Assembly (NCBI GenBank): GCA_013816585.1
Contig: JACDEE010000002.1
Location: forward strand, 62,001 to 126,000
Reading direction: 5' to 3'
From: Sphingosinicella sp.
GTDB lineage: Bacteria > Pseudomonadota > Alphaproteobacteria > Sphingomonadales > Sphingomonadaceae
Length of the DNA stretch: 64,000 nt
In this document: piece by piece, positions 26,833-28,220 of the stretch
Layout: each line of letters begins with the position of its first letter
How positions within the stretch are numbered: the stretch's first letter is position 1
Made by a program: the position numbers and the translations under genes
Notes under the pieces: generated by a model
What the model was told of the DNA's origin: nothing
The model's input: only the letters and a program-made list of their open reading frames with translations
Databases searched by the model: none

Positions 26833-26860
26833 TGTCACATTTTGACCTGCGCATCTCGTC
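26833..26860 (+). promoter_or_regulatory. Candidate ECF41-dependent promoter
   Basis: TGTCACA at 26833-26839, a 17-base spacer, then CGTC at 26857-26860, ending 29 bases before the carboxymuconolactone decarboxylase-like gene. TGTCACA / CGTC is the promoter motif described for ECF41 sigma factors, and the sigma gene is the second gene downstream, so this is a likely autoregulated promoter. Confidence 0.75.
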
Positions 26861-26889
26861 TGTGATCGGAAACTGGAAAGGAACCGATC

Positions 26890-27351
26890 ATGACACCCAA
26901 GCTCAACCCCTTCGCCGCCGCCCCCGACCTGATGAAGCACTGGTTGCAGATCTCGCAGGCTATCGCGGGCAGCATGGAACCGAACCTCGTCAGCCTGGTC
27001 GAAGTCCGCGCCTCGCAGCTGAATGGCTGCGCGAATTGCCTGAACATGCACACCGCTGAAGCACGGGCCAGGGGAGAGAGCGAGCAGCGCCTCTATTTGC
27101 TTTCCGCCTGGCGGGGAGCTCCCTGTTATTCGGACCGCGAACGAGCTGCCCTCGCGTGGACCGACAGCTTGACGCGGCTCTCGCAGGAACACAGTCATGC
27201 AGCGGCCTACCAGGCGCTCAAGGACGAATTCTCCGAGGAGGACCAAGTGAAGCTTACTTTGCTGATCAATGTCATCAACGGCTGGAATCGATTGGCGGTG
27301 GGCTTCGACCTTTGGGCCGACAAAGTTACCACGGACAAGGAGGCGGCGTGA
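26890..27351 (+). CDS. Carboxymuconolactone decarboxylase / AhpD-like protein, ECF41 partner
   Basis: 153 residues of the CMD/AhpD family. The redox motif is NGCANCLNMHTAEARARGE (C-x-x-C followed by H), at about residues 44-54, which in AhpD supports peroxidase or disulfide chemistry. The remainder (CYSDRERAALAWTDSLTRL, LINVINGWNRLAVGF) fits the family. A good AAAGGAA precedes the ATG at 26890. The stop overlaps the GTG start of the ECF41 sigma gene by four bases (GTGA). CMD-like proteins are one of the standard partners of ECF41 sigma factors. Confidence 0.93.
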   Translation: MTPKLNPFAAAPDLMKHWLQISQAIAGSMEPNLVSLVEVRASQLNGCANCLNMHTAEARARGESEQRLYLLSAWRGAPCYSDRERAALAWTDSLTRLSQEHSHAAAYQALKDEFSEEDQVKLTLLINVINGWNRLAVGFDLWADKVTTDKEAA

Positions 27352-28220
27352 CTGGGGAAGCTTCGCATGAGGAGGCCGCGGCCAGCTTCAATCCGCTGCG
27401 GCGACGTCTGACCAGAATTGCCTATCGTATGCTTGGGTCGGTCGCCGATGCGGAGGATGTGCTGCAGGAGGCGTTCCTGCGGTGGATGACGGTGGACCGT
27501 AGCGAAGTTCGAGTGCCCGAAGCCTTTCTCCGCCGGACTGTGACGCGGCTGTGCCTCGACCAGCTCAAGTCAGCGAGACATCAGCGGGAAAATTACGTCG
27601 GGGAGTGGCTGCCCGAGCCCGTCATCGAGGAAGACGAGGAAGACGAGGAAGAGGATGCGGACGTCACCCTGCCGCTCATGATCGCCCTTGAACGATTGTC
27701 GCCGCTAGAACGTGCCGCGTTCCTGCTGCACGACCTATTCGGGGTCGGATTTGGTGAAATCTCCGCGACTATAAACCGGGAGCCCGCCACTTGCCGTCAG
27801 CTTGCCGCCCGCGCCCGGGCTCACGTTCGGGAGGAACGGCCACGTTTCAGGGTGCAGAAGGAACGGGGACTGGAGATTGCCAGTGCGTTCTTTGCGGCGT
27901 CGCGCAGCGGGGACATGTCTATTCTCGGAGGCATGCTCGCCGAGGATGTCAGCATGCATTCGGACGGCGGCGGCAAGCGGCCCGCGGCTTCGCGTCCGAT
28001 TCTTGGCTTCCAACAGGTCATGAAGCTTCACGAGTCTCTAGCAGGCTTGTTCGCGAAACTAGGCTCGAAGCTTGTCCGCACTGGCATGATCAACGGGTTG
28101 CCGGGCTTTGTTAGCCTGGAGGCTGATGGAATTCAGACGACCGCGCTGGAGATAGAAGATGGCAAGGTCGTGGCCATCTATATCATGCGCAATCCCGAGA
28201 AGCTGAAGCATCTGCACTAA
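27348..28220 (+). CDS. ECF41-type sigma factor with fused SnoaL-like regulatory domain
   Basis: 290 residues from GTG 27348, which overlaps the upstream stop. Region 2: RRLTRIAYRMLGSVADAEDVLQEAFLRW; region 4: RLSPLERAAFLLHDLFGVGFGEISATINREPATCRQLAARAR. The three ECF41 hallmarks are present: WLPEP in the linker (followed by an unusually acidic stretch EEDEEDEEEDAD), DGGGK in the C-terminal SnoaL-like domain, and NPEKL at the very end. In ECF41 the fused C-terminal domain replaces an anti-sigma factor, and the last residues modulate activity. The frame is open further 5' but that part is the shadow of the CMD gene. Confidence 0.95.
   Translation: MTGEASHEEAAASFNPLRRRLTRIAYRMLGSVADAEDVLQEAFLRWMTVDRSEVRVPEAFLRRTVTRLCLDQLKSARHQRENYVGEWLPEPVIEEDEEDEEEDADVTLPLMIALERLSPLERAAFLLHDLFGVGFGEISATINREPATCRQLAARARAHVREERPRFRVQKERGLEIASAFFAASRSGDMSILGGMLAEDVSMHSDGGGKRPAASRPILGFQQVMKLHESLAGLFAKLGSKLVRTGMINGLPGFVSLEADGIQTTALEIEDGKVVAIYIMRNPEKLKHLH

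Follow-up and report, generated by a model that had tools for sequence, protein, structure and literature searches.

Two overlapping genes in the 64,000-nucleotide stretch of Sphingosinicella DNA analyzed here (the window) raise the question of whether a CMD gene and a sigma factor gene form a self-activating operon of group ECF41 and, if so, how far the sigma factor reaches and what it answers to. We conclude that the locus very probably belongs to the group ECF41 operons with the published gene order >COE> >ECF> and is probably self-activating, on the strength of sequence, a predicted structure and analogy with characterized systems. The layout, promoter, single target and truncation effect of such systems, and the fact that their signal is not known, have already been published (PMC3426412, PMC6180224, PMC8999054 and PMC7730460), and the window operon is a sound further example and no new type of system. 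The features of the locus are as follows.

26833..26860, plus strand: ECF41-type promoter (from the sequence, a genome-wide search for exact sites, relatives' loci and the published motif, PMC3426412)
26868..26868, plus strand: putative start of transcription at a G that lies 22 bases 5' of the ATG (by analogy with mapped starts in Rhodobacter sphaeroides and Bacillus licheniformis)
26890..27351, plus strand: CMD/AhpD-like protein, 153 aa (from PF02627, TIGR00778, solved relatives and relay columns)
27348..28220, plus strand: ECF41 sigma factor of 290 aa that begins with GTG (from profiles, a search of solved structures and a predicted fold)

Promoter, layout and proteins of the operon

The -35 element TGTCACA (26833-26839) is followed by a 17-base spacer (26840-26856) and the -10 element CGTC (26857-26860), the latter lying within CTCGTC and ending 29 bases before the CMD start codon, an ATG at 26890. 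A sequence-only reading of the window had proposed TGTCACA-N17-CGTC ahead of the CMD gene, and this holds to the base, with a placement that matches that at relatives' ECF41 loci. The published motif has a spacer of 16 +/- 1 (PMC3426412), and the N17 site before this COE gene falls within it. For the start of transcription, the running text of that source gives a G with leaders of 22 and 23 bases, whereas its Table 5 gives 31 and 32 for the same genes. The exact motif has no second copy in the window and just one more in the 2.82 Mb genome; matches with up to two mismatches are uninformative, as nine were found in the window versus 10.9 expected.

The CMD stop codon (TGA, 27349-27351) and the sigma factor's GTG (27348-27350) overlap, and both reading frames bear out the four-base overlap that had been reported. 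Profile searches of the flanking genes, all on the minus strand, gave threonine synthase for one side and, for the other, a DUF6975 protein and an AAA/MoxR-type ATPase; none of these neighbors is an anti-sigma gene. The sigma gene thus adjoins a COE gene upstream with no obvious anti-sigma gene, as in ECF41, and layout, profiles and predicted fold together support the idea of an operon in which a fused domain stands in for a neighboring anti-sigma gene.

The sigma protein comprises sigma2 (approximately residues 16-77; PF04542, E 2.8e-14), a linker that holds WLPEP and a stretch of acidic residues, sigma4 (approximately 113-159; PF08281, E 5.1e-10) and a C-terminal SnoaL/NTF2-like domain (approximately 171-290) that carries DGGGK and NPEKL. 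The Pfam pair is that of ECF41, and the linker reads GEWLPEP, WLPEP in this position being an ECF41 hallmark (PMC3426412). The C-terminal extension of about 100 residues is recognized on two of its three conserved motifs, NPEKL and DGGGK, whose regions are conserved across 26 aligned sequences. NPDKL is described as a motif of ECF41 in PMC7730460; neither it nor DGGGK is spelled out in the available text of Wecke (PMC3426412), and DGGGK is treated as a hallmark here on the basis of the sequence-only reading and the 26-sequence alignment. At 404.7 bits the protein cleared the 271-bit cut-off of the SigJ profile NF007214, and TIGR02957 (SigX4) scored 293.3 bits, below its cut-off of 323.25. SigJ of Mycobacterium tuberculosis (5xe7) was the best solved relative by sequence (residues 11-286, E 4.2e-48).

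Pfam did not detect the SnoaL domain, either in the whole protein at E up to 0.001 or in residues 115-290 at E up to 0.1. An AlphaFold2 model, for which the window protein was aligned with 25 relatives, reached a mean pLDDT of 86.0 and a pTM of 0.76, and a fold search with it returned 5xe7 as the best match (E 2.1e-18, 34% identity), so that SigJ leads by both sequence and fold, yet is only about a third identical. SigG1 of Streptomyces tsukubaensis, an ECF56 factor with a fused SnoaL_2-type domain (7qh5), came second (E 2.4e-14), followed by other sigma factors, ketosteroid isomerases and SnoaL-like proteins. These matches indicate that a fused SnoaL-like domain was correctly proposed, and the predicted model has the SnoaL/NTF2-like fold that Pfam misses. 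As described in PMC7730460, SigG1 is without NPDKL and is paired with an anti-sigma factor of its own, RsfG, whereas the window protein has NPEKL and no adjoining anti-sigma gene. With WLPEP, DGGGK and NPEKL all present and the SigJ profile and fold in agreement, the assignment to ECF41 stands. A run of Glu/Asp codons follows WLPEP (window 27627-27662: EEDEEDEEEDAD). This linker segment is the most acidic of 40 ECF41 proteins (15 Asp/Glu versus 5-11); we no longer regard an acidic linker as an oddity in itself, since relatives' linkers are acidic too, only shorter.

The CMD protein matched PF02627 (E 5.5e-20) and TIGR00778 (ahpD_dom, E 2.6e-14), and among solved structures it is closest to 7xw1 and 2ijc (each E 1.1e-32) and PA0269 of Pseudomonas aeruginosa (2o4d, E 1.8e-32). 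Its CxxC is CANC, and a downstream His is kept in the His55 column, as in AhpD-like proteins. The relay of PA0269 consists of Glu36, Cys48, Tyr50, Cys51 and His55 (PMC3141380); the window protein shares both Cys and the His, but has Ser for Glu36 and Asn for Tyr50. Asn in the latter column is usual (36 of 57 CMDs, counting proteins of at least 85 bits), and Ser in the Glu36 column was found in 2 of the 57, each with a Glu three residues on, as in the window protein. The relay acid may thus have shifted by one helix turn, with the later Glu taking over, and one family member is reported to have His at this position (PMC3141380). An earlier count, based on 30 CMDs that fitted a simple motif, with 10 others set apart for not fitting it, had made the Ser look unique (1/30); the larger set led us to drop that point.

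ECF41 loci in relatives and origin of the module

The survey covered 199 genomes of the window's family, with ECF41 genes called at E up to 1e-30. It returned 41 genes in 36 genomes, and in 34 of the 36 an exact motif lay within 3.5 kb of an ECF41 gene, G004 and G083 having none within that distance. Forty of the 41 sigma ORFs were readable, the last running off its contig; WLP[ED]P and DGGG were present in 40/40 and NP[ED]KL in 39/40, NPEKL being the less common form (four of those 39). In 35 of the 40 loci, the gene immediately 5' of the sigma gene and in the same orientation was a CMD gene, the remaining five lacking it there, and it overlapped the sigma gene in 22 of the 35, by four bases in 11 and by one base in 11. 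A motif search within 2.5 kb, with the -10 relaxed to [CT]GT[CT], gave a motif-type site at 25 of 46 named loci in other genomes from Acidobacteriota to Actinomycetota, with a CMD match at 17 of the 46 (hand counts); at 12 further loci of the same genus it gave 12 motifs, with 11 CMD matches.

With spacers of 15-18, there were 140 exact sites in the 36 genomes: 40 at a distance of up to 3.5 kb from an ECF41 gene, and 100 elsewhere. A reversed-pattern control gave 73 matches in the same genomes (summed by hand), so most of the sites elsewhere are expected by chance. The spacer was 16 or 17 in 39 of the near sites; among the 37 on the strand of the sigma gene it was 16 in 28, 17 in eight (the rarer length, which the window promoter shares) and 18 in one. 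A T preceded CGTC in 37/40 near sites versus 30/100 elsewhere. Flanking bases and spacer were then combined in a matrix-based flank score for 39 near sites, the fortieth, with an 18-base spacer and 3.3 kb past its sigma gene, being excluded. Locus sites scored between 1.5 and 13.6, with a median of 7.4 compared with -10.9 for the 100 others, where the locus sites also served to train the score, with a site's own row omitted for the flanks and kept for the spacer term, and the genomes are related by descent, such that the sites have common ancestry. Flanking bases separated the locus sites from 95 of the 100 sites elsewhere. The window promoter scored 2.9, low among locus sites.

Three of the five other sites that scored at least 1.5 precede COE-type genes. 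The G011:C36 site lies 27 bases before an NAD-binding/epimerase-type gene and the G144 site 48 bases before a CMD gene with CxxC, both far from their genomes' ECF41 genes. The third (G125:C14; L072, minus strand) lies 45 bases (hand count) before a CMD-like stretch whose frame is apparently broken; being 3.6 kb from an ECF41 gene, it counts as elsewhere by the 3.5 kb limit and is not truly unlinked. The remaining two were unconvincing, one being inside an ORF and the other having no downstream ORF of at least 90 aa.

The survey also brought up two unusual sigma genes. In Sphingomonas deserti (L097/L167; G591:C3), an ECF41 gene with an internal TGA stands beside an exact promoter and a CMD gene, possibly as a dying copy or through a sequencing error. 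In G032:C13 (L078:1298-2989), a CMD gene that has an exact ECF41 motif is followed by a 563-aa ORF joining an ECF41 sigma factor in frame with an alpha/beta hydrolase (PF00561, residues 331-440), and in G115:C10 the two halves of such a fusion lie at opposite contig ends, as in a circular replicon cut within the gene. Among the 52 matches listed from a class sample of 385 genomes, with at most three first-look candidates scored per genome, none extended past residue 313. The hydrolase may hint at the type of compound that ECF41 factors sense.

Within the genus, 12 of 26 genomes, including that of the window, have an ECF41 gene. In a tree of 96 sigma factors (omitting L079, whose ORF runs off its contig, and L131 and L132, which are shorter than 220 aa), the window protein paired with one from another genus (G168; support 98/62), and grouped with Acidicapsa dinghuensis and two Mesorhizobium proteins at a starred support of 99/88. 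The 13 ECF41 proteins of genus mates all fell elsewhere, three at other positions of its 23-row clade and 10 outside that clade (read by hand). As the nearest relatives of the sigma factor lie outside the genus, the module was likely acquired horizontally, although paralogy with losses may be an alternative origin. A MoxR match accompanied 25 of the genus's 26 DUF6975 loci, and the module was found only at that of the window: within at most 1.5 kb of the other 25 (less at contig ends, e.g. L136), neither the module nor threonine synthase gave a match, and no empty site or insertion scar could be demonstrated within that distance.

Reach of the sigma factor and its possible signals

That the motif is a chance match is extremely improbable. 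Exact matches are admittedly common away from ECF41 genes, with 100 of the 140 in the survey more than 3.5 kb from those found, but the window site has both the position and the CTCGTC extension seen at relatives' locus sites. The question of a wider regulon is posed by the only other exact site. A genome search for further TGTCACA-N16-17-CGTC sites had been suggested for defining the regulon; carried out over 2,824,289 bases with spacers of 14-19, it found the window promoter and C40:29207-29233 (minus strand), the latter 45 bases upstream of an orphan MAPEG gene (L008:4509-5162, minus strand, 217 aa). A looser pattern, with the seventh -35 base free and TCGTC required, added one site, on C29. 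We consider it quite improbable that the sigma factor also drives this membrane protein gene. The MAPEG site is the genome's only other exact one and stands close before an ORF start, but it scored -2.6, whereas the lowest locus site scored 1.5, and lying below all 39 it is probably due to chance. The reversed pattern likewise gave one match in this genome. The geometry is not rare, since 10 of 24 non-locus sites including this one (taken from the 100, some picked for high score) had an ORF start 15-60 bases downstream; five of the 10 were outside a same-strand ORF, a weak test because 28 of 37 locus sites are also inside some ORF. No orthologue was available to gauge conservation of the site, MAPEG matches being confined to two of 199 family genomes (its own and one weak homologue) and one of 385 class genomes (its own). 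The search thus turned up one further exact site, and the simplest reading is that the operon is the sole target of its sigma factor. One target each, the CMD gene or operon, is also reported for R. sphaeroides, B. licheniformis and Sinorhizobium meliloti (PMC3426412, PMC6180224). An Azospirillum ECF41 factor is cited for motility and lateral flagella (title of a reference in PMC8999054), so that a single target is not universal for ECF41. It would nevertheless be a long shot to suppose that a horizontally acquired module escaped the one-target rule here and recruited an unlinked, non-COE MAPEG output found in no close relative sampled.

A further reading is that the module, once acquired horizontally, is now decaying or drifting apart from its relatives under new conditions in this host, which we judge unlikely. 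In keeping with it are the grouping of the sigma factor with another genus, Acidicapsa and Mesorhizobium, an end branch of 0.24 versus 0.086 for its sister, the low promoter score, the replaced relay Glu and the exceptionally acidic linker segment; both frames, the overlap, the promoter core, WLPEP, DGGGK, NPEKL, CxxC and the His are, however, intact. A link to redox or peroxide stress had been suggested from the CxxC of the CMD partner, and this fared less well than the assignment to ECF41. A module with the CMD protein as an AhpD-like peroxidase and a sigma factor that answers oxidants appears rather doubtful. The CANC motif and His are kept, PA0269 has weak cysteine-dependent H2O2 reduction (PMC3141380), and a sigJ mutant of M. 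tuberculosis is cited as slightly H2O2-sensitive (PMC3426412, PMC7730460), with sigJ mRNA reported not to respond to H2O2 (PMC7730460). Furthermore, CxxC is reported in all ECF41-linked CMDs (PMC3426412), and the AhpD-like RclX of P. aeruginosa guards against HOCl and HOSCN (PMC7950407). Against this, spot tests covering H2O2, cumene hydroperoxide, t-butyl hydroperoxide and paraquat are described as giving no phenotype for ECF41/COE mutants of R. sphaeroides and B. licheniformis, and arrays as giving no reproducible one (PMC3426412); RclX is under a different regulator, RclR (PMC7950407); and two of the five relay residues are changed in the window protein, one of them to a rarely seen Ser. 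A general peroxidase role is doubtful for the window protein. A role against chlorine oxidants, as for RclX, would be a hypothesis, these lying outside the oxidants that Wecke spot-tested (PMC3426412, PMC7950407).

Two more sigma factors of this genome have SnoaL-type C-terminal matches (L008:2827-4538 on G000:C40 and L009:3083-4751 on G000:C8, the match of the latter below the Pfam cut-off), and no WLPEP was seen in either. Each lies directly 3' of an overlapping short-chain dehydrogenase ORF (by four bases, as listed, on C40), and the pairs follow an ECF41-like logic of redox enzyme and fused sigma factor.

Proposed working and significance

Having set these alternatives aside, we return to the self-activating ECF41 operon. 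RNA polymerase carrying the sigma factor would recognize TGTCACA-N17-CGTC and transcribe the CMD gene together with the sigma factor's own gene, which would create a positive feedback loop, and the four-base overlap probably couples translation of the two. In place of an anti-sigma protein, the SnoaL/NTF2-like domain would set sigma activity, its NPEKL end contacting the WLPEP linker between sigma2 and sigma4. The trigger is likely a small ligand in the NTF2-like pocket, and the CMD protein, a thiol protein of AhpD-like fold, would act as the effector. We infer that the window copy works like the published ECF41 systems, in which promoter use, the single target, the effect of truncation and the contact between domain and linker were shown in species other than Sphingosinicella. 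Promoter activity with C-terminally trimmed sigma variants, which had been proposed as a check, has been reported for two other ECF41 factors, where partial truncation of the extension activates and full removal inactivates (PMC3426412); for the window protein the same would hold by analogy.

The closest parallels, by description, are two. Ecf41Rsp/RSP_0606 of R. sphaeroides (PMC3426412) shares the CMD partner and target, the gene overlap, the TGTCACA...CGTC promoter, the fused C-terminal domain and the absence of an anti-sigma gene, but unlike the window locus it has a tested promoter and tested truncations. RpoE9/SMb20029 of S. meliloti (PMC6180224) likewise has a CxxC CMD upstream, which is its single target there, and CTCGTC, although its promoter is TGTCACA-N16-CGTC whereas the window spacer is 17.

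The window operon is thus a clean further example of the ECF41 group. To the published picture the comparison adds that the -10 at the family's ECF41 loci is usually CTCGTC, and that three of the five strongest off-locus sites stand before COE-type genes. The ECF41 module, for its part, seems to move between genera.
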